Origin: Cellulosilyticum lentocellum DSM 5427
GTDB taxonomy: Bacteria > Bacillota > Clostridia > Lachnospirales > Cellulosilyticaceae
Reading direction: 5' to 3'
DNA: 64,000 bases
NCBI RefSeq assembly: GCF_000178835.2
Contig: NC_015275.1
Location: 2,687,001-2,751,000 of the forward strand
Part shown: piece after piece, positions 53,641-62,902 of the stretch
Numbering within the stretch: the stretch's first letter is position 1
Layout: each line of letters begins with the position of its first letter
Translations under genes and position numbers: made by a program
Notes under the pieces: model-generated
Databases searched by the model: none
What the model was told of the DNA's origin: nothing
The model's input: the letters and a program-made list of their open reading frames with translations, nothing else

Positions 53641-54375
53641 TTATTTTTTGCACCACCATTGTTCTAGCCCATCAATCATAATAAATAGCATAAATCCTAA
53701 TAAACCTAATATTAAGATACCACCATACATAGCTAAATAATTCATTCGACTCCAACTATCTTGGATATAATAACCTAACCCATGCTGTGTTCCGTAGTTT
53801 TCAGCAAAAAATAAAACAGATAAAGTAGTCCCTACTGATAACCTAAGATGCGTTAAAATATCAGGAAGTACTGCTGGTAAAGTGACATGGTAAAACATTT
53901 GCCCTTTACTCGCTCCTAAACTCCTCATACTATGATAAAGGCCTGCATCAATCTGCTGAACACTCCCTCTTACTGCTACAATGACCTGAAAAACTGTAAT
54001 CAGCACAATAAGCGTAATCTTTGAATGATCTCCTAAACCAAACAAAATCATTAGAATAGGGAGTAATGCAGTTTTAGGAATAGGATAAGTAAAATAGATT
54101 AACGGATTTAAAAGACGGTTAATAACAGGTGAAGTACCCATTAATAGCCCAATCATTACGCCTATTAACGTAGAAATCAATAGCCCCCAAAAAATTCTTT
54201 GAAGACTTGCCCCTATATGTCCTAGCATAGGCCCCCCTATAATTTTTGGTAAATAGCCATAGACTTTTGTCGGCACTGGTAAAGCTGGTGTTTTTAACCA
54301 AATGGCTCCTAAATACCATATAAGATTAAAGAATAAGAAACCTTGTAAAAATAATAAACCTTTCCTTTGCTTCAT
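53641..54375 (-). CDS. ABC transporter permease (SsuC/TauC/ThiX type)
   Basis: 244 residues with six membrane helices and the EAA-loop region (SMRSLGASKGQMFYHVTLPAVLP). Belongs to the BPD_transp_1 permeases that serve NMT1-type binding proteins for small organic molecules such as sulfonates, pyrimidines or riboflavin. It starts within the ATPase stop (TGATG overlap) and is the last gene of the downstream part of the UbiA/UbiD/UbiX run. Confidence 0.92.
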   Translation of the reverse strand: MKQRKGLLFLQGFLFFNLIWYLGAIWLKTPALPVPTKVYGYLPKIIGGPMLGHIGASLQRIFWGLLISTLIGVMIGLLMGTSPVINRLLNPLIYFTYPIPKTALLPILMILFGLGDHSKITLIVLITVFQVIVAVRGSVQQIDAGLYHSMRSLGASKGQMFYHVTLPAVLPDILTHLRLSVGTTLSVLFFAENYGTQHGLGYYIQDSWSRMNYLAMYGGILILGLLGFMLFIMIDGLEQWWCKK

Positions 54376-55121
54376 CAGCTTCTCCCCCTTTTAATTTGTT
54401 CTTTAATTTGATGATAAAGCACTTTAAATTCTTCTCTTTCTCTAAAATGTGCATCTGCAAAAAGAGGGTTTTCCCATATAGCATTTACTGTTCCATTTTG
54501 ATACATGACAAGAATCTTATTTCCCATATAAAGTGCTTCTTCGATACTATGTGTGACGATTAAAGTCGTACAATGGTGCACTCTCCAAACCTTCAAAAAG
54601 ATTTCTGCTGCCTCTTCTTTCATAATGGCATCTAAAGCTGAAAAAGGTTCATCCATTAATAATAATTCTGGTGAAAAAGCAAAAGCTCTAGCAAGGGCTA
54701 CTCTTTGACGCTGTCCACCACTTAAAGCACTTGGATACCGTTTCGTTAACTGCTTAAGCTCTAAAGTCTCTAATACTTCTTCAAGATGCGCTTTTCTTTC
54801 TTCTGTCAGTTTCATCTTTTTAATGCGAAATGGTAAAGTACAATTTTCATATACTGTTTTCCAAGGTAAAAGACCATAACCTTGAGGAATATAACCAATG
54901 CGCTGCTTTTGATAATTAAAGCTTTCTCCCTTCATTAAAAGACTTCCTTCATAAGGTGTTATGCCTGCTAATGCTTTAATAAAAGTAGACTTTCCACATC
55001 CCGAAGGACCTATAATGGCAATAATCTCTCCTGGGTCTAGTGTTAAATCAATCGGTCCTAATGCCCTTTCAAAAATTTTATTGTTTTTATATTTCACTAC
55101 TAAATCCCTTACCTCAATCAT
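54375..55121 (-). CDS. ABC transporter ATP-binding protein (SsuB/TauB type)
   Basis: 248 residues. Walker A GPSGCGKST (about 38-46), Q-loop in GYIPQGYGLLPWKTV, signature LSGGQRQRVALARA, Walker B ELLLMDEPFSALD and the switch His in IVTHSIEEAL are all intact. Drives the adjacent permease. Precedes it with one-base overlap; follows the binding-protein gene after a terminator-like hairpin, which should lower its expression relative to the binding protein. Confidence 0.95.
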   Translation of the reverse strand: MIEVRDLVVKYKNNKIFERALGPIDLTLDPGEIIAIIGPSGCGKSTFIKALAGITPYEGSLLMKGESFNYQKQRIGYIPQGYGLLPWKTVYENCTLPFRIKKMKLTEERKAHLEEVLETLELKQLTKRYPSALSGGQRQRVALARAFAFSPELLLMDEPFSALDAIMKEEAAEIFLKVWRVHHCTTLIVTHSIEEALYMGNKILVMYQNGTVNAIWENPLFADAHFREREEFKVLYHQIKEQIKRGRS

Positions 55122-55182
55122 GTTGTATTCACCTCTCTTTAATTCTTTATTTTAACATGAGATTATCTCTAAACATCACACT

Positions 55183-55220
55183 AAAAGAGGCATTGCACTA
55201 ACTAAGTACAACACCTCTTT
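55183..55220 (-). terminator. Attenuating hairpin between binding protein and ABC ATPase
   Basis: AAAGAGGTGTTG/CAATGCCTCTTT interrupted stem with TTTTAG after it on the minus strand, 12 bases past the binding-protein stop. Probably a leaky terminator. Confidence 0.6.
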
Positions 55221-55231
55221 ACTAGTTGCTA

Positions 55232-56212
55232 TTACTGAATAACACCAATGTCACTTACTGCATCTGCTGGTTCAAGCGTAATTGTTAAAAGTCCCTTGTC
55301 TTCACACCAATCAAATACATCTTCTACTTCCTCTAAAGGAGGTAATTGATTTTTTCTAAATACAGGTGCAATAATGTTACCTCTCATCTCTTCTGGATAA
55401 CCAATGGTTGTAATAATCACTTCTTCATAAGCTTTTACATCTGTTGTATTAATGTAATCGACACCTTTGTTGTAGGCTGTATAAAAGGCTTTAATAGCAT
55501 TTGGTTTTTCATCAATAACAGATTGCTTAAATGCTGTAACAGAAGGGTACATACCACTATCCACATCTACCTTTTCAATCATTTTACCACCATTTGCAAT
55601 GGCTGTATCAGAAAAAGGACTTGGCATAATGGCAGCATCTATTTCTCCATTATTAAGCATTTCAAGTCTTGTTGGCATTGCTGGAATGGCTACTTTTTCT
55701 ACTGCTGCTTCAGACACATCATATTTATCTAATAGTTGGTCTAATGTATATTCAATGACTGTGTTTTCTGAAATAGCCACTTTTTTACCCACTAAATCAG
55801 CTACTTGATTAATACCACTATTGGCACCTGCTACTAAGACAAACTCGCCATCTGTCATGCCAGTAATTTTCATATCAATCCCTGCATTTTGATAAATAGC
55901 AATGGCAATCTGATCACAAATGACCCCATCAATTTGGCCTGCTTGAAGCGCTGCATCACGATCTTTAGCAGCTTTAAAAAATTCTAACTTTACATCTACT
56001 CCTGCTTCCTCAAAATACCCCTTCTCCTCTGCCATAATAATGGGTAGCGCTGAAATCGAACTAATAAGTCCTAAAGAAAGACTTTCTTTTTCAGCTCCTG
56101 CTTCTGATGGTGATGGACTGGCTTCTGGAATGGGCGCTTTTGCATTACATCCTACCATGACTACACTTAATATGAAACATAATAATACACTTAATTTCTT
56201 TTTCATCTTCAT
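55232..56212 (-). CDS. NMT1/THI5-type solute-binding lipoprotein
   Basis: About 326 residues from the ATG at 56212 (AAAGGA upstream). A lipoprotein signal peptide ends in VVMVGCNAK with the lipobox Cys. The mature protein has the periplasmic-binding fold of the NMT1 group: SLGLISSISALPIIMAEEKGYF, GVDVKLEFF, DAALQAGQIDGVICD, LVGKKVAI. Relatives bind thiamine precursors, sulfonates or aromatic compounds. It lies 37 bases after ubiX, so the ligand may be a substrate or precursor of the UbiA/D/X pathway. The ligand itself is not deducible from sequence. Confidence 0.88.
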   Translation of the reverse strand: MKMKKKLSVLLCFILSVVMVGCNAKAPIPEASPSPSEAGAEKESLSLGLISSISALPIIMAEEKGYFEEAGVDVKLEFFKAAKDRDAALQAGQIDGVICDQIAIAIYQNAGIDMKITGMTDGEFVLVAGANSGINQVADLVGKKVAISENTVIEYTLDQLLDKYDVSEAAVEKVAIPAMPTRLEMLNNGEIDAAIMPSPFSDTAIANGGKMIEKVDVDSGMYPSVTAFKQSVIDEKPNAIKAFYTAYNKGVDYINTTDVKAYEEVIITTIGYPEEMRGNIIAPVFRKNQLPPLEEVEDVFDWCEDKGLLTITLEPADAVSDIGVIQ

Positions 56213-56248
56213 TCTCTTTCCTTTCATCAAGTCGTTATCTATTGTGGG

Positions 56249-56827
56249 TTAATGATCTGTCCATTTTTGAAATAGCTGATGATGGATTCCTAAATGATCT
56301 AGCACTTTACCTACTACAAAATCTATAACTTCTTCTAAAGATTTGGGTTTGTGATAAAAACCTGGCATGGCAGGTAAAATACTCACATCCATCTTAGCTA
56401 GCTTCAACATATTTTCTAAATGAATAGCATTTAAAGGGGTTTCTCTTGGTACTAAAATAAGTGGTCTTTTTTCCTTAAGTGCTACATCTGCCGCACGTAC
56501 CAGGAGATTTTTAGATAGACCATAAGCTATCTCACCTAAAGTTCCCATAGAACAAGGCATTACAATCATGGCATCAAAGCCATAAGAACCACTAGCAATT
56601 CCTGCAAACAAATGATCGTTTTCTTCTAAAATAAGCTGATGGTACTGCTTTCTAAGCTTTTCCATATAAGACTTAAACTCTAAGTCTAGCTCATAAGCAA
56701 ATACTTTTTCAGCTGTAGCAGTCGCAATCACATGAATCTCCAAATCTAACCTTAGTAGTTCTTCAATTAATCTTTTAGCATAAATACTACCACTAGCACC
56801 TGTTATACCTACCACAATTCTTTTCAT
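56249..56827 (-). CDS. ubiX: Flavin prenyltransferase UbiX
   Basis: 192 residues. Makes prenylated FMN, the cofactor of UbiD decarboxylases. Visible: VGITGASGSIYAKRLIEEL (FMN-binding start), the IASGSYGFDAMIVMPCSMGTLG region and the C-terminal LVPRETPLNAIHLENM with conserved Arg-Glu. AAAGGAG before the ATG. Placed 30 bases after ubiA and in the same unit as the ubiD gene it would serve. Confidence 0.95.
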   Translation of the reverse strand: MKRIVVGITGASGSIYAKRLIEELLRLDLEIHVIATATAEKVFAYELDLEFKSYMEKLRKQYHQLILEENDHLFAGIASGSYGFDAMIVMPCSMGTLGEIAYGLSKNLLVRAADVALKEKRPLILVPRETPLNAIHLENMLKLAKMDVSILPAMPGFYHKPKSLEEVIDFVVGKVLDHLGIHHQLFQKWTDH

Positions 56828-56857
56828 ATACGCTCCTTTATTATCAAATGAATGATC

Positions 56858-57733
56858 TTATAATACTGTAGCTAGTACGCCGCATATAAGAAATACAATG
56901 CTAATAACTTGATTAATCTGGTAAGAGGCAATTTTAACATTCGTAAGATTATCTGGTGATACCAGCTTGTGTTCAATGATAAATAAAATACCAATAACAA
57001 GCATCCCTATTTCATAAATAACATTTAATTGCTTACTCATTAGTCCTATTGCCACTAGTATAACCCAAGCCAAAGCATGAAATACTCTGGCAATCATTAA
57101 AGCTTTTCTCACACCAAATCGTGCTGGAATAGAATGAATACCATGAGCTTTATCAAACTCATAATCTTGCGCACCATAAATAACGTCAAAACCAGCTACC
57201 CATAAAGTATTAGCAGCCCCCATCAGTAGAGGTAGTAAACTGATTTTTCCAGTCACTGCAAGCCATGCTCCTACAGGTGCTGCTGCAGAAGTAATACCTA
57301 ATACTAGATGGCAAGCCCATGTAAAACGTTTGGTATATGAATAAATAGTCATTAAGAAAATGGCTAGTGGTGATAGGATGAAACATAAAGTATTCAGCTG
57401 TAATGCACCTAATACCATCACCACAAAACAAATCATCGTAAAAATAATAACTTCCTTTTTATTCATAAGTCCACTAGGGATTTGTCTATTAGCTGTTCTA
57501 GCATTTTTAGCATCTATTTCTGCATCAATGACTCTATTAATGGCATTAGCACCTGTTCTAGCCCCCATAAAAGCTACCAAAATCCAAAACATAGTATCAA
57601 GCGAAGGCAAGCCTTCTGCAGCTAATAACATGGCAATAAGTGCAAAAGATAATGAAAAAATAGTATGTGAAAACATCACTAATGTGGCATAATCATTGAC
57701 TTTATTCTTTATTTTTTTAATGATTTTTATCAA
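56858..57733 (-). CDS. ubiA: UbiA-family aromatic prenyltransferase (MqnP/UbiA-like)
   Basis: 291 residues, eight to nine membrane helices. Both Asp-rich motifs for prenyl-diphosphate binding are present: NRVIDAEIDAKN (first) and DVIYGAQDYEFDKAHG (second). The start FSHTIFSLSFALIAML is like 4-hydroxybenzoate and MqnP-type enzymes. Initiation appears to be at TTG 57733, nine bases after GGGAGG and overlapping the ubiD end by 17 bases, which implies coupling. Attaches an isoprenoid chain to an aromatic acid; the acceptor is unknown. Confidence 0.9.
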   Translation of the reverse strand: MIKIIKKIKNKVNDYATLVMFSHTIFSLSFALIAMLLAAEGLPSLDTMFWILVAFMGARTGANAINRVIDAEIDAKNARTANRQIPSGLMNKKEVIIFTMICFVVMVLGALQLNTLCFILSPLAIFLMTIYSYTKRFTWACHLVLGITSAAAPVGAWLAVTGKISLLPLLMGAANTLWVAGFDVIYGAQDYEFDKAHGIHSIPARFGVRKALMIARVFHALAWVILVAIGLMSKQLNVIYEIGMLVIGILFIIEHKLVSPDNLTNVKIASYQINQVISIVFLICGVLATVL

Positions 57734-59546
57734 TTTTATAGGCCTCCCAATTATTTGTTACATATGTTTTAACGGCCTCACTCATAACAATATCATCTGG
57801 CCAGATACGTTCATGTCCTTCTGAAGGTAGTTTTTTAGTCGCATCAATTACCACTCTTACATCATCTATAGCTATTTCTTGTACCGTTATATCTCGTTTG
57901 GCATCAATATTATTAAAGAGTTTCCAACATACAATGGATACTTTGTCTACTGGAATATCCGCATCTACTAAAATGAGAACCTTAGATTCTACCTTTGGCG
58001 CTTTTAAAAAGGCTTCTGTCAGGCCTTTAGCTGCGCTGCCATCAGTTTTATGAATAGCTACTACAGTATACCCTTTTAAAATACCATTTGTTAAAACCGC
58101 TCCTTCTTGAATCACCTCTTTAAAATCAGTTAGGTCAAATGGGACGCATGCTTCAACTGGCTCTTTTTCATGCCATAAACTCATATCTCCTTCAGATGGC
58201 CATTTACGAGTAGCATCAACACCTAAACGATAGCCGTAATGCGACATTGGCGATGCATGATCCAGTGCATCTAGTGGCCCTGGTGAAAAGATCATATCTA
58301 GCTTTGGCCTTGTATTCTTAAGAATACAACTTGCTACGGCTTCATAGTCACTTGGTTTGATATCCTCATCTACTACAATGACCATTTTGGTATACATCAT
58401 TTGTCCCATTCCCCATGCGGTATTCATCACTTTTTTAGCATGTGCTGGAAAACGTTTTTTAATAGACATAATGACACAGCCATGAAAAACACCTTCTAAC
58501 GGAAAATCCATGTCCACTACTTCTGGACTGATCATACGAAGCAATGGTAAAAACAAACGCTCTGTTGCTTTTCCTATATAGCAATCTTCCATAGGTGGTT
58601 GCCCTACAATAGTCGCTGGATAAACGGGGTTTTTCTTATGGGTAATACAAGTCACATGAAAAACTGGATAATCATCTTCTAAGGAATAATAACCCGTATG
58701 ATCACCAAATGGTCCTTCTCTTCTTGGCTGTTCATTAACGTCTACATAACCTTCAATGACAAACTCAGCTTCAGCTGGCACAGAAATATCACTGGTAATG
58801 GATTTTACCATTTTAACTGGCATTTTTCTAAGATACCCTGCAAACATCATCTCATCTATCATTTTAGGCAGAGGTGCTGTTGCTGCATAAATAATGGCTG
58901 GGTCACCTCCCAAAACCACTGATACCGGCATCTTACCTCCACGCTTTTTATAGCTTTCATAAATTTCACGACCATCTTTATGCCAATGCCAGTGCATCCC
59001 TGTGGTGTTCTTATCAAACACTTGCATACGATACATGCCCATATTTTGCACACCTGTTTCTGGGTCTTTTGTAATGACCAATGGCAAGGTAAAAAAGGGG
59101 CCGCCATCTTGAGGCCAACAATGAAGCACTGGCAATTTTGTTAAATCCGGCTTGGTTTCAATCACTTCTTGACAGCTTCCTTTGGTAGGGAGCTTAATTG
59201 GAAAAACAGAAGCCAGCCGGCTTAAACGTGGTGCTGATTTAGCTAAGTTCATAATGCCCATGTAATTGGTCATATCCAGAAATCTTGCTAAATCTTCTTC
59301 TAAAGTCTTAAAGTTTTTAGCACTTAACGCCATACTCATACGCTCATAAGTTCCCATGGCATTAATAAGTACAGGGTAAGGAGAGCCTTTTACTTTTTCA
59401 AATAGTAAAGCAGGCCCATAAGCCTTAGAAACACGGTCCGTAATCTCCGTAATTTCCAAATAAGAATCTACTTCTTTTTTAACTCTTACAAGTTGTCCTT
59501 CTTCCTCTAGCTTTTTAATAAAGCTTTGTAAATTTTTATAACTCAT
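57717..59546 (-). CDS. ubiD: UbiD-family decarboxylase (MqnL-like)
   Basis: 609 residues, size of menaquinone-type UbiD rather than the 490-residue E. coli UbiD. Uses prenylated FMN. The conserved active-site region EQPRREGPFGDHTGYYS carries the Arg-Glu-(Asp) triad residues, and the prFMN/Mn-binding segment QVFDKNTTGMHWHWHKDGR is intact. Would decarboxylate a prenylated or free aromatic acid. Located 18 bases after the aminotransferase and coupled to ubiA. Confidence 0.93.
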   Translation of the reverse strand: MSYKNLQSFIKKLEEEGQLVRVKKEVDSYLEITEITDRVSKAYGPALLFEKVKGSPYPVLINAMGTYERMSMALSAKNFKTLEEDLARFLDMTNYMGIMNLAKSAPRLSRLASVFPIKLPTKGSCQEVIETKPDLTKLPVLHCWPQDGGPFFTLPLVITKDPETGVQNMGMYRMQVFDKNTTGMHWHWHKDGREIYESYKKRGGKMPVSVVLGGDPAIIYAATAPLPKMIDEMMFAGYLRKMPVKMVKSITSDISVPAEAEFVIEGYVDVNEQPRREGPFGDHTGYYSLEDDYPVFHVTCITHKKNPVYPATIVGQPPMEDCYIGKATERLFLPLLRMISPEVVDMDFPLEGVFHGCVIMSIKKRFPAHAKKVMNTAWGMGQMMYTKMVIVVDEDIKPSDYEAVASCILKNTRPKLDMIFSPGPLDALDHASPMSHYGYRLGVDATRKWPSEGDMSLWHEKEPVEACVPFDLTDFKEVIQEGAVLTNGILKGYTVVAIHKTDGSAAKGLTEAFLKAPKVESKVLILVDADIPVDKVSIVCWKLFNNIDAKRDITVQEIAIDDVRVVIDATKKLPSEGHERIWPDDIVMSEAVKTYVTNNWEAYKIDKNH

Positions 59547-59563
59547 TATTTGTCCCCACTTCT

Positions 59564-60865
59564 CTAGTCGTTGTATAAAGCGGCTTTATTTATTGCTATT
59601 CCAGCTAAAATGCTATCTAATGCATCTAATAAATCCTTGACATTCTCTGGCGTAATCACTAATGGTGGCTGAAAGGCTAAGACATTTCTTTCTAAGCCAT
59701 TTTTACCTAAAATGATGCCACATTCTTTTAAAGCTTCTAATATATCATCTACCAGTTCTGGTGCTGCCATTCCATTTAAGTGACGTACTTCTACGCCTAC
59801 CATAAGTCCCATACCTCTTACATCTGCTAAAATAGGATACTTTTCTTGAAGTAGTTTTAGTCCCTGCATCAATTGTTTTCCTAAGGTTTCTGCACGCTGA
59901 CATAAGTCATATTTTTCAATATAATCTAGCACTGCTAAAGCCGTGGTACTACAAACTGGATTACCTCCTAAAGTAGAAGCGGATGGTTTATTAAAGGCCA
60001 TAGCAATCTTTTCATTGGTGCAAGCTGCTGATATAGGCATACCATTACCTAGTGCTTTAGCTACTGTTAAAATATCTGGTACCACCTCATAATGTGAGAT
60101 AGCAAAAAGCTTTCCTGTACGTGCAAAGCCAGTTTGCACTTCATCTATAATAAGTAAAATATCATTGGCTTCTAAAAGTGCTTTAAGTGCCTTAAAATAG
60201 TGAGGTGGTGGTGTAATAATCCCACCATTACCTTGAATAGGTTCCATAATAAGTGCTGCAATATTATCTTTGCCTCTCATCTCAATGATTCTTCTAATAC
60301 TTTCTAAAGACTTCTTAGCTGCTGTTTCTATGTCTTCACCATAAATAAATGTATTTTCTGCAAAATGAACGGCATCAGATAAATAAGGATCACTTCGCCA
60401 CATAGGTATCGCCGTAGTACTCATAGTTAAATGTGTTCGCCCATGGAGACCATTTTTTATAGCAATAAACTCTTTTTTCCCTGTATAAAGTCTAGCCATT
60501 AATAAAGCTGTTTCGTTAGCTTCAGAACCTGTGCAGCAGAAAAAAGAACGACATATATCACCTGGTAAAAGTCCACTTAAGCGTCTTGCTAATTCTCCCA
60601 TTTGCTCTGTTAAATAAATAATACTAGTGTGCTGTAATGTACGCATTTGAGCAATAGCTGGCTCAATAATTTCCGGATTACAATGACCACAGTTCATTAC
60701 CGAAACACCTGAAAAAAAGTCTAAATACTTTTTGCCCGTATCATCATATAAATACTGCATCTCACCTTTTACGATTACTGGTGGCTCTTTGTAAAAATGA
60801 TTCCAGCTAGGTGGACACAAATAATTTTGTTTATTTTCAATCACTTGCTCCTTTAATGAATCCAT
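59564..60865 (-). CDS. Class III PLP aminotransferase (AGXT2/acetylornithine type)
   Basis: 433 residues. PLP-binding motifs: FFCCTGSEANETALLMAR, IIDEVQTGFARTGKLF with the Asp that contacts the pyridine nitrogen, and the Schiff-base lysine in TVAKALGNGMPISA. The opening CPPSWNHFYKEPPVIVKGE is like alanine-glyoxylate or beta-amino-acid aminotransferases rather than ArgD. In this operon it may make or consume the amino/keto precursor of the aromatic ring, or release a transported amino acid. AGGAGG before the ATG, 13 bases after the U32 gene. Confidence 0.9.
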   Translation of the reverse strand: MDSLKEQVIENKQNYLCPPSWNHFYKEPPVIVKGEMQYLYDDTGKKYLDFFSGVSVMNCGHCNPEIIEPAIAQMRTLQHTSIIYLTEQMGELARRLSGLLPGDICRSFFCCTGSEANETALLMARLYTGKKEFIAIKNGLHGRTHLTMSTTAIPMWRSDPYLSDAVHFAENTFIYGEDIETAAKKSLESIRRIIEMRGKDNIAALIMEPIQGNGGIITPPPHYFKALKALLEANDILLIIDEVQTGFARTGKLFAISHYEVVPDILTVAKALGNGMPISAACTNEKIAMAFNKPSASTLGGNPVCSTTALAVLDYIEKYDLCQRAETLGKQLMQGLKLLQEKYPILADVRGMGLMVGVEVRHLNGMAAPELVDDILEALKECGIILGKNGLERNVLAFQPPLVITPENVKDLLDALDSILAGIAINKAALYND

Positions 60866-60877
60866 TTTATTTTCCTC

Positions 60878-62794
60878 CTAGTCAAATTGCAATGCACCTA
60901 ATGTATAGCCCTTTTCTCCTCTTATAAACTGCGGCATTTCCTCTTTTTGAACAATTGCTTTTTGTGCGGCTTGATAAAGCCTAATGATGTGTTCTAACTC
61001 CTCACAGTTATAACTAGCACCTTCTATACGAAAATACGTAGCTCCTGCTTTATAAAGCGCCTCTATAAAGGGTAGGTAAGCTAATTCTTTGGTTAATAAC
61101 ATATGATTTCTACCTTTACAATCACGATAAATAGGATGTTCGTACCCCTTATCATCTATTAGGTATAAAATGCCTTCTTTATAATGAGTTTCATCTAATT
61201 CAGCTCCTGCTAAAGCTTTTGTATTATCATATAAATCATGTTCCATATACATCACAGCCGGTCTACCATGAACAATGACTTCTACTGGCATGCTGCTTGC
61301 CGCTAAAAAGTCTCTTGTATTATAGAGGGGTGATTCAATAGATAAGGTTATACGCTCTAAGCCTTGATGCTGGTAAAATTTAGCCATCTCTGCATTATAT
61401 ACATTTAATGAGAAATCCCCTATTAGCTCAAGTCCTAAATGTTTATACTCACCAATAGCACCAAGCTCCGTTATTAAAAGGCCATCTAAGCCCAAGTCTT
61501 GACTTAAATAATGATGATACACTTTAAAATCTTCTTCGTACATCATACGTGGTAAAGCCAAATAAATTTTACTACCTGCTTTACGTGTCGTAAGGTCCTT
61601 TATTTGTGCTACTGAAAAAGGTTTACTTGGCTCATACGTATCTCCTGATAAGTAAATATGTTCTACACCTAAGCTCAGTGCTAATACTGCACTCTCATAA
61701 TCATTAACGCGAATCGTCAGTTCAGGTCCTTTAGTTATTACTTGGTTTCCTGTTAAAACTTCTCTAATAACCTGCAAACGTTCTTCTTTCATTTCGATTT
61801 CTTCTACTGGCTGGCTAAACACTTTACCTGTGCTGTAGAATTTACCAGTTCCTTCATAACGCCTATTAATATTTTGAAGTCCTGGCTTACCAAAAGCATA
61901 AGCTGTTGATAAATCTCTATTACGATTTGCTTTTAGCAGTGCTAAATCCTGTTCTCGGTTGTAATCAATGGGGTCTTGTATATAACGATCTATGGCTTCA
62001 CTATAAGCCTTAATAATGGTTGCTAAGTAATCCATACTACGCATACGTCCCTCTATTTTAAAGGAAACAACGCCTGCATCAATTAATTCAGGAATATGGC
62101 TATACATGGCCATATCTTTTACCGCTAAAGGATAAGTTGTATCATAAAGCTTGTTGTCTTTTATGGCTTTGTACCCCCAACGACAAGGCTTCATGCAACG
62201 TCCTCTGTTACTACTTTGTCCAAAAACCATCCCTGAATAAGTACATTGTGCCCCATGGGCAATACACATGTCACCATGAACAAAATATTCAAATTCCATA
62301 TCTGTTTGAACATGTAGGGCCTTAATTTGAGCTAGAGACATTTCTCTAGACGCTACTATTCTCGTTACACCTAGATTTCTTAGGGTTTTAATCATAGGTA
62401 AATTGTGAACATTCATCATAACTGATGCATGAATAGTTAAATCAAGCTTCATCTCTTTTATTTTCTCTATTAAGCAAACATCTTGCACAATAAGTGCATC
62501 TGGTCCCACTTCGTTTAGAAAGACCAAATAATCTTCTATATGCTTAAGATCCTCATGACTTAATAAATTGTTAACTGTAATATAGACCTTCTTATTTAAA
62601 GCATGGGCCATTTCCACGGCCTGTCTTATTTCTTCCTGTGTAAAATTAAAATCTTTACGATGCATACGCATATTAAAGTTCTTGCCACCAAAATAAACGG
62701 CATCTGCACCGGTTTGAATGACTTCCTTAAAAATTTCAAAGTTTCCTGCTGGTGCTAGGAGCTCTACCTCTTGACCATTAAAAAACCTACTCAT
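60878..62794 (-). CDS. U32-family (collagenase-like / Fe-S hydroxylase) protein
   Basis: 638 residues. Opens with the U32 signature LLAPAGNFEIFKEVIQTGADAVYFGG. The four-Cys set typical of the family lies at C177, C184, C200 and C204 (HGDMCIAHGAQC...SSNRGRCMKPCRW), followed by FKIEGRMRSMDY. A second barrel-like half fills the C-terminus. Although named peptidases, characterised members (UbiU/UbiV, RlhA, TrhP) are Fe-S proteins of oxygen-independent hydroxylation of quinone precursors or RNA. Being first in an operon with UbiD, UbiA and UbiX makes a hydroxylation role in that pathway attractive but unproven; an RNA-modifying role as for RlhA is the alternative. Confidence 0.88.
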   Translation of the reverse strand: MSRFFNGQEVELLAPAGNFEIFKEVIQTGADAVYFGGKNFNMRMHRKDFNFTQEEIRQAVEMAHALNKKVYITVNNLLSHEDLKHIEDYLVFLNEVGPDALIVQDVCLIEKIKEMKLDLTIHASVMMNVHNLPMIKTLRNLGVTRIVASREMSLAQIKALHVQTDMEFEYFVHGDMCIAHGAQCTYSGMVFGQSSNRGRCMKPCRWGYKAIKDNKLYDTTYPLAVKDMAMYSHIPELIDAGVVSFKIEGRMRSMDYLATIIKAYSEAIDRYIQDPIDYNREQDLALLKANRNRDLSTAYAFGKPGLQNINRRYEGTGKFYSTGKVFSQPVEEIEMKEERLQVIREVLTGNQVITKGPELTIRVNDYESAVLALSLGVEHIYLSGDTYEPSKPFSVAQIKDLTTRKAGSKIYLALPRMMYEEDFKVYHHYLSQDLGLDGLLITELGAIGEYKHLGLELIGDFSLNVYNAEMAKFYQHQGLERITLSIESPLYNTRDFLAASSMPVEVIVHGRPAVMYMEHDLYDNTKALAGAELDETHYKEGILYLIDDKGYEHPIYRDCKGRNHMLLTKELAYLPFIEALYKAGATYFRIEGASYNCEELEHIIRLYQAAQKAIVQKEEMPQFIRGEKGYTLGALQFD

Positions 62795-62902
62795 CTTACC
62801 GCCTCTTTCTTAGCATTTTTCGTCTCAGATTTTTGACCTAAGTCAACTCATTATGCTATGTTTGCATCTAACTGTCAATATTTATTCCCTTATCCTTTAT
62901 TT

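Follow-up and report, generated by a model that had tools for sequence, protein, structure and literature searches.

What does a clostridial operon make that joins UbiA, UbiD and UbiX to an ATP-binding cassette (ABC) importer, a U32 protein and an aminotransferase, and from where does it take its aromatic ring? The question is raised by eight co-directional open reading frames (ORFs) of Cellulosilyticum lentocellum DSM 5427, located on the minus strand at positions 53641–62794 of a 64,000-nucleotide stretch (the window; contig NC_015275.1, positions 2,687,001 to 2,751,000) and coding for a U32 protein, class-III aminotransferase, UbiD, UbiA, UbiX, binding protein, ATPase and permease. The answer favoured here, with moderate confidence, is an importer-fed tail of the futalosine pathway making a quinone for flavin-based electron transfer, with 1,4-dihydroxy-6-naphthoate as the most likely precursor; the broader reading, that an aromatic ring of some kind is imported and built into a prenylquinone, is considered quite likely. 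Product, ligand, reactions and order of steps are what we infer from the comparisons given below.

Judged by profile scores, the UbiA/UbiD/UbiX set is a tail of the futalosine pathway, the enzymes of which were named MqnP, MqnL and MqnM by Ravcheev and Thiele 2016 (PubMed Central PMC4746308). UbiD passes TIGR03701, the equivalog model of the menaquinone decarboxylase MqnL, with 645.3 bits (cut-off 495.9), as does UbiD of an MqnC-bearing Selenomonas genome (locus L232, 635.7 bits). Its score on PRK10922, the UbiD model of E. coli type, stays far under the cut-off (397.1 versus 788 bits); the protein can be aligned with the E. coli UbiD structure 2idb. UbiX passes TIGR00421 (229.1 bits, cut-off 108.9) and UbiA passes TIGR01475 (306.5 bits, cut-off 180.8), the latter scoring 312.3 bits on MqnP_DT versus 123.5 bits on UbiA_proteo, and 277 bits on PRK12888 (named 4-hydroxybenzoate octaprenyltransferase), below the cut-off of that model. 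All three MqnP cut-offs are missed by the window UbiA and likewise by five UbiA scanned from MqnC-bearing genomes; MqnP_DT scores span 252–332 bits in five UbiA of the MqnC-less, or headless, type (window, L055, L158, L168, L185) and 238–354 bits in five from MqnC-bearing genomes (L187, L191, L193, L195, L232). The window UbiA carries what we take to be both Asp-rich motifs, and UbiX supplies prenylated flavin mononucleotide (FMN) to UbiD. Since UbiD is of the futalosine type and UbiA resembles that of MqnC-bearing genomes, 1,4-dihydroxy-6-naphthoate would be the simplest precursor, rather than an arbitrary aromatic acid. 1,4-Dihydroxy-2-naphthoate (DHNA), the prenylation of which needs no UbiD, is an unlikely substrate of the operon UbiA, a separate DHNA prenyltransferase existing in the home genome.

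Some variation among these enzymes may be recorded. UbiD comprises about 600 residues in the window, L055, L058, L158, L163, L167, L188 and L193 and about 480 in many others, the long form being found in MqnC-less and MqnC-bearing genomes alike; the extra C-terminal part of the window UbiD repeats conserved C-terminal motifs of the family. A diverged UbiD (L059 in genome G178, 50 % identity) departs from many residues common to most other rows, has no UbiA or UbiX in the fetched stretch and belongs to a same-genus genome without type-II NADH dehydrogenase (NDH2). In G087, which is likewise without NDH2 at the threshold given below, a UbiE/MenG-type methyltransferase (L061:2348-3720) adjoins UbiA, so that this lineage may make a methylated quinone.

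As far as searches for MqnC, MqnE and MenD reach, the operon is a futalosine tail without a head. In the home genome, a single contig of 4,714,237 bases (99.95 % complete), the best MqnC match amounts to 42.5 bits (cut-off 428.1) and the best MqnE match to 35.6 bits (cut-off 434.55). Within a sample of 295 genomes of the same order, 17 (home genome counted) carry an operon-type UbiD at E ≤ 1e-100; neither MqnE nor MenD was found over cut-off in any of these 17, and MqnC in none of 21 genomes made up of the 17 and four relatives without UbiD match. Of 14 control genomes, 2 passed the cut-off for MqnC, 2 for MqnE and 7 for MenD. PF02621, the family of MqnA and MqnD, is uninformative here because its low cut-off is passed at 26–46 bits (12 of the 21 genomes at E ≤ 0.001, 8 over cut-off, best 45.6 bits) and because the one home match (31.5 bits) is a binding protein of the ABC type, its neighbours being permease-like and ATPase genes, for which reason it was rejected as evidence of MqnA or MqnD. 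A preliminary description of the window had seen no mqnA–D genes there, and in the whole genome no match over cut-off was obtained for MqnC or MqnE. The possibility that the operon is the ordinary tail of a futalosine or Men pathway encoded in full at another place is rejected on MqnC, MqnE and MenD, MqnB not having been searched. The PF02621 match belongs to a further ABC importer of the home genome (G000:C1:1591099-1593444; L069:4600-6945), the binding protein of which is over the cut-off of that family and represents an annotation trap for menaquinone genes.

Linkage of the tail to importer genes extends far beyond the home genome. In 10 of the 17 UbiD-positive order genomes, the own included, ubiD-ubiA-ubiX lie next to ABC genes, ATPase and permease following either ubiX or the binding protein, and since the same arrangement recurs to this extent, the gene cluster is not a matter of chance. 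In G197, the contig ends inside ubiA. A wide scan with a UbiD alignment covered 84,980 species, each represented by a single genome, and the best 80 of 586 confirmed loci were kept. The MqnC search covered 45 of these (the named set, many of them drafts, with L185 of Breznakiella on a complete-genome record) and left 35 outside; 18 genomes were labelled MqnC-positive by a match at E ≤ 1e-60 and 27 headless. Fifteen of the 18 are over the MqnC cut-off, the best matches of the remaining three amounting to 413.9, 407.3 and 342.6 bits; the last is the single match behind the label of G331, which is doubtful, as it lies within the range of second matches of other genomes and may be MqnE. An importer gene is present in the ubiD flank of 22 of the 27 MqnC-less versus 1 of the 18 MqnC-bearing genomes (Fisher 3.8e-7), and 19 of the 27 MqnC-less loci have two or more of the three importer genes there.

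At three loci, permease and UbiA are fused in one ORF (L194:5972-7612, 546 residues; L189:5612-7306, 564 residues; L217:1792-3432, 546 residues), each with PF00528 followed by PF01040 over cut-off. These loci, named Spirochaetes, Deltaproteobacteria and Desulfobacterales, respectively, stem from draft metagenome records and show the order sbp-atp-[perm-ubiA]-ubiX-ubiD, the contig of L217 starting just before atp, with no binding protein seen. Being fused in one protein is good evidence that permease and prenyltransferase share one substrate, which the fusion leaves unnamed. The preliminary description had suggested an aromatic acid that is taken from the environment and converted into a quinone-like lipid; the association of importer and UbiA/D/X is supported far beyond the home genome, three fusions included, the arbitrary aromatic acid gives way to a likely 1,4-dihydroxy-6-naphthoate, and the interpretation as a whole is partly supported.

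Two further fusions were observed. In L176:5020-6537 (505 residues), UbiX is joined to a binding-protein domain of another type (PF02441 followed by PF04392, both over cut-off), perhaps a cytoplasmic ligand holder, inside an operon with U32, aminotransferase and the usual importer. L212:10292-11788 unites importer ATPase and permease (PF00005, PF00528) in a single ORF extending as far as the end of the contig.

The NMT1/SsuA-type importer of the window is complete, binding protein (PF09084), ATPase (PF00005) and permease (PF00528) all being over cut-off, and its ligand is probably an aromatic acid, most likely 1,4-dihydroxy-6-naphthoate as precursor. Residues R91 and R188 of the binding protein are invariant in 24 sequences, own included, which is in keeping with an acid ligand. 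The best fold neighbours of its AlphaFold model (predicted local distance difference test, pLDDT, 89.4) are SsuA, CmpA and a zinc-bound Staphylococcus protein (Z 27–28), TauA also being among the neighbours; pyrimidine-binding 3ix1 (Z 24.7) and MqnD (Z 19.7) were retrieved as well. The same fold is found in PqqT (9b1u, Z 25.6), which was solved with the quinone cofactor pyrroloquinoline quinone (PQQ) bound and is 16 % identical to the operon protein; this likeness speaks for the favoured account.

The quinone of the operon appears to serve NDH2 and flavin-based extracellular electron transfer (FLEET), a role that the preliminary description had not foreseen. FLEET-type NDH2 (query L055:6710-8587, E ≤ 1e-60) was detected in 15 of 17 UbiD-positive versus 29 of 278 UbiD-negative order genomes (Fisher 4.3e-12) and in 24 of 27 MqnC-less versus 0 of 18 MqnC-bearing named genomes (Fisher 7.8e-10). 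At least two kinds of FLEET gene are located in the fetched ubiD flank of 6 of the 27 MqnC-less loci (L158, L160, L165, L174, L177, L222), compared to none of the 18 MqnC-bearing loci and none of the 35 outside the MqnC search. In L055, L060 and L062, NDH2 immediately precedes the set, and polyprenyl synthase genes are present in L055 and L158. The latter locus, from Clostridium cuniculi, arranges NDH2-HepT-U32-amt-ubiD-ubiA-ubiX-sbp-atp-perm-ApbE-EetA-EetB-lipoprotein within about 16 kb, one small unassigned ORF lying between amt and ubiD. In the home genome (G000 denoting the whole genome and L102 the stretch concerned), ApbE, NDH2 with DoxX, NusG-II, PF07456 and HepT are encoded together at G000:C1:1062043-1067200; a search for polyprenyl synthases had been suggested earlier, and HepT is found there beside NDH2. 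Small lipoprotein-like genes of the FLEET block (L102:6397-6942 and L158:18361-18825) carry DAV[TS]GVSIKV near the C-terminus and have no Pfam match; the conserved former one, considered as a candidate for the PplA-type flavinylated lipoprotein, reads DAVTGVS. Perhaps they represent a diverged FMN-binding domain.

The U32 protein and the aminotransferase are linked to the pathway, yet optional among UbiD-positive genomes. U32 (E ≤ 1e-90) was found in 9 of the 295 order genomes, all nine UbiD-positive, and in 0 of 278 UbiD-negative ones (Fisher 5.9e-13); 8 of the 17 UbiD-positive genomes are without it at this threshold. The aminotransferase adjoins U32 in six of the nine (own, G010, G014, G147, G184, G196; not in G198, G212, G264), and U32 is not beside ubiD in six (G010, G147, G184, G198, G212, G264). 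Among the named loci, five have U32 in the flank, all of them MqnC-less (L158, L160, L166, L167, L176); four of these also possess the aminotransferase, the fifth (L166) stopping at the contig edge. The pair is located inside the operon in L176 and near ubiD in L158, L160, L167, L055 and L066, in agreement with the link to UbiA/D/X that had been proposed from the window. In L160, a gene (L160:15356-16762) is interposed between permease and U32. The DHNA prenyltransferase (E ≤ 1e-12) is missing in 6 of 9 UbiD-positive order genomes with U32 versus 1 of 8 without (p 0.0498), and U32 is present in each of the six order genomes that combine UbiD and NDH2 without having a DHNA prenyltransferase. 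This pattern, which was recognised only in retrospect, is a hint that NDH2 can be served by the U32 branch alone. Neighbouring genes of U32 and of UbiA in G212, and genes in the vicinity of U32 in G198, were assigned to DUF3048, QueA, DUF2812 and Sir2 and provide no pathway clue. Besides a U32–aminotransferase pair near ubiD, G196 harbours a second U32 (L244, G196:C530) that adjoins importer genes of the same type (for permease, ATPase and binding protein).

The chemical roles of both proteins, including an O2-independent hydroxylation, are putative. E169, C177, C184, C200 and C204 of U32 are invariant in a 6-row alignment, and the first three are spaced, at an offset of 7 residues, as E162, C170 and C177 of TrhP, which were reported to be essential (PMC6599085); it is this spacing, rather than a direct TrhP alignment, that suggests the correspondence. 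The protein is far below the cut-offs of the UbiU (164 bits, cut-off 440) and UbiV (65 bits, cut-off 275) models and also of the TrhP model, though TrhP is the closest among NCBIfam models, and a PDB sequence search retrieved no match at E ≤ 0.01. With a weak AlphaFold model (pLDDT 68.9, from 6 rows), Foldseek placed the U32 protein Mk0906 (5d88) second, among generic barrels, and no function was taken from it. For the aminotransferase, none of the 25 best NCBIfam matches (69 in all) is over its cut-off; a specific substrate was dropped, as PDB and NCBIfam matches spread over γ-aminobutyrate, acetylornithine, phospho-lyase and racemase types.

According to the favoured account, the ABC importer would take up a soluble aromatic acid released by neighbours, most likely 1,4-dihydroxy-6-naphthoate, the last soluble intermediate of the futalosine pathway. 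UbiA would add a polyprenyl chain to the imported acid, a HepT-type synthase being encoded at the electron-transfer locus, and UbiD, with prenyl-FMN made by UbiX, would strip the carboxyl group to yield demethylmenaquinone or a close relative. This quinone could then let the FLEET NDH2 pass NADH electrons to flavoproteins outside the membrane, while U32 and aminotransferase may form an optional branch altering the ring or the imported precursor. A bolder version is rather less probable: in fermentative Bacillota and Spirochaetota, a dedicated importer of an aromatic quinone precursor would supply FLEET, its fusion to the prenyltransferase in some lineages letting the ring pass directly to prenylation, and the U32/aminotransferase branch would make a quinone other than demethylmenaquinone via O2-independent hydroxylation or amination.

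Several observations weigh against the favoured account. No importer was seen beside ubiD or ubiA in the fetched stretches of G010, G087, G178, G198, G212 and G264 (6 of 17), nor in the ubiD flank of 5 of the 27 headless loci. MqnC-bearing L194 has an importer, as a fusion (its best MqnC match, 413.9 bits, being under the cut-off of 428.1), and importer genes stand near ubiD in 5 of the 35 loci outside the MqnC search (L189, L202, L212, L217, L228). Proteins that match the fold of the binding protein with better Z have sulphonates, bicarbonate or nitrate as ligands. The home NDH2 locus is about 1.7 Mb away from the operon, and because the home genome has a DHNA prenyltransferase (a gene found in 27 of 44 searched genomes), demethylmenaquinone could arise from imported DHNA without the operon. 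A plain naphthoate route leaves U32 and aminotransferase unexplained. Finally, a UbiD tree was computed by a quick method from 58 rows (the window, 13 order loci and 44 named genomes, MqnC-positive L204 being left out because its ORF set has no ubiD ORF). The headless label needs 4 changes on this tree (0 of 500 shuffles as low), and since the associations follow phylogeny, the Fisher values overstate the independent evidence; with only one independent pair on starred branches, a sign test cannot reach significance. Two starred sets comprise 31 headless rows (Bacillota, two Haloplasmataceae and one Treponema) and 6 headless Spirochaetota, respectively. The weight is carried by the physical linkage, the permease–UbiA fusion and these two separate headless sets.

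The U32 protein gives rise to a different proposal, an O2-independent benzoquinone route in which imported 4-hydroxybenzoate or a relative would be processed by UbiA, UbiD/UbiX and a U32 hydroxylation as by UbiU/UbiV to a prenylated benzoquinone for NDH2, the aminotransferase adjusting the precursor. Confinement of U32 to UbiD-positive order genomes (9 of 9), its place in the L176 operon, the match of its E and C residues with the essential ones of TrhP and its presence in all six order genomes with NDH2 but without DHNA prenyltransferase agree with such a route, as does the sub-cut-off score of UbiA on PRK12888, model scores being no proof of substrate. It is nevertheless unlikely, since both UbiA and UbiD score higher on Mqn-type than on proteobacterial models, the UbiU and UbiV models are far from reached and the 8 of 17 UbiD-positive order genomes without U32 would lack the hydroxylase. 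Conversely, U32 and aminotransferase could be mere bystanders sharing a promoter, for example as a tRNA-hydroxylase operon, which would be compatible with the favoured explanation for the other six genes. The closeness of TrhP among NCBIfam models and the position of the pair far from ubiD in G147, G184 and G010 fit in with this, but the distribution of U32 (0 of 278 UbiD-negative versus 9 of 17 UbiD-positive order genomes) and the placement of the pair inside the L176 operon and near ubiD in five further loci make it improbable.

It is likewise improbable that the operon makes no energy quinone at all, UbiD and UbiX detoxifying or salvaging an imported aromatic acid, UbiA prenylating an unrelated lipid and the NDH2 link being a lineage signal. 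NDH2 and the headless state do have few independent origins on the UbiD tree, and NDH2 was not found in 3 of the 27 headless genomes nor in G087 and G178 of the order sample. Such a reading is opposed by the six headless flanks with at least two FLEET-type genes, by NDH2 preceding the set in L055, L060 and L062, by the passing of the menaquinone decarboxylase cut-off by UbiD, and by the polyprenyl synthase genes of L055 and L158.

The coordinates of the operon and of two related genes are compiled in Table 1. Each of the eight proteins exceeds the Pfam gathering threshold for its general family, so that genes, families and common strand are as first described. Intergenic spacing is 12–30 bases or overlap, except for 110 bases between binding protein and ATPase; this sole sizeable gap accommodates the single hairpin reported before, perhaps an attenuator or processing site (55122-55235, −27.5 kcal/mol, z −3.4, 1 of 200 shuffles equally good). 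Promoter-like sites are overall no richer than chance (40 versus a mean of 38.7).

Table 1. Features of the operon (window positions) and related genes elsewhere in the home genome (G000 positions)
Feature	Position	Strand	Evidence
U32 protein, 638 residues, tandem U32 domains	60878..62794	-	PF01136, two stretches
Class-III pyridoxal phosphate-dependent aminotransferase, 433 residues	59564..60865	-	PF00202, 347.7 bits
UbiD-family decarboxylase, MqnL type, 609 residues, C-terminal part repeated	57717..59546	-	TIGR03701
UbiA-family prenyltransferase, putative MqnP type, 291 residues	56858..57733	-	TIGR01475
UbiX flavin prenyltransferase	56249..56827	-	TIGR00421
Lipoprotein-type NMT1/SsuA-family binding protein	55232..56230	-	PF09084
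Hairpin between binding protein and ATPase	55122..55231	-	16-pair stem
ABC importer ATPase	54375..55121	-	PF00005
ABC importer permease	53641..54375	-	PF00528
Promoter-like site upstream of U32	62850..62878	-	TTGACA-17-CATAAT, 11/12, consensus match only
NDH2 with C-terminal membrane part	G000:C1:1063346-1065163		PF07992 + DoxX
DHNA prenyltransferase (DmkA)	G000:C1:1033139-1034086		over cut-off, ~28 kb from FLEET locus

Gut bacteria have been proposed to use soluble menaquinone precursors of their neighbours, the transporters being referred to as still to be annotated or undescribed (PMC4746308, PMC5738691). For these transporters, called missing by two papers, the cluster offers named candidate importers; the domain fusion ties importer to prenyltransferase, and NDH2/FLEET is the candidate consumer. 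According to a 2026 survey, quinone pathways are apparently absent from many lineages, most of which belong to Bacillota and Chloroflexota (PMC13386864); if the present proposal is true, some of the 'quinone-less' fermenters would be quinone auxotrophs fed by neighbours. No description of the importer–tail cluster was found in the best-ranked open-licence PubMed Central titles and abstract openings, and PMC8238504 and PMC12421875 are without the quinone or FLEET terms and without the transport terms looked for, respectively.

Among known systems, the operon shares with the futalosine tail MqnP/MqnL/MqnM a UbiD over the MqnL cut-off, a UbiA of putative MqnP type and UbiX; it differs from the full pathway in having no MqnC or MqnE match over cut-off and in its connection with an ABC importer and, for some genomes, with U32 and aminotransferase. 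Incomplete Men pathways, described as keeping menA/menG only and proposed to depend on exchange of soluble precursors (PMC4746308), likewise retain late membrane-bound steps while early ones are missing, whereas here the retained enzymes are of futalosine type and linked to a candidate importer. The O2-independent ubiquinone pathway UbiUVT (PMC6747719, PMC10470549) also unites UbiA, UbiD, UbiX and a U32 protein in one set, from which the single 638-residue tandem-domain U32 protein of the operon differs by being below the UbiU/UbiV cut-offs. A proposed quinone-to-NosR/ApbE flavin route of iron-reducing Clostridium (PMC13134045) resembles the present case in leading from NADH via quinone to a flavinylated protein in fermentative clostridia; it differs in proceeding via NosR, and the text of that paper makes no mention of UbiA, UbiD, Ndh2, FLEET or EetA. 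The FLEET locus of Listeria and lactic acid bacteria, from which the gene roles used here are taken (PMC8837199, PMC9973259, PMC10746273), has in common the grouping of NDH2, ApbE, EetA-like NusG-II, EetB-like PF07456 and HepT (PMC8837199, PMC9973259). L. plantarum takes the quinone precursor DHNA from outside (PMC10746273), and an external precursor is the likeness proposed here; what differs is that UbiA/UbiD/UbiX with their own ABC importer accompany the DHNA prenyltransferase or stand where that gene was not found. The operon is thus most likely a variant of known systems and not a new kind.

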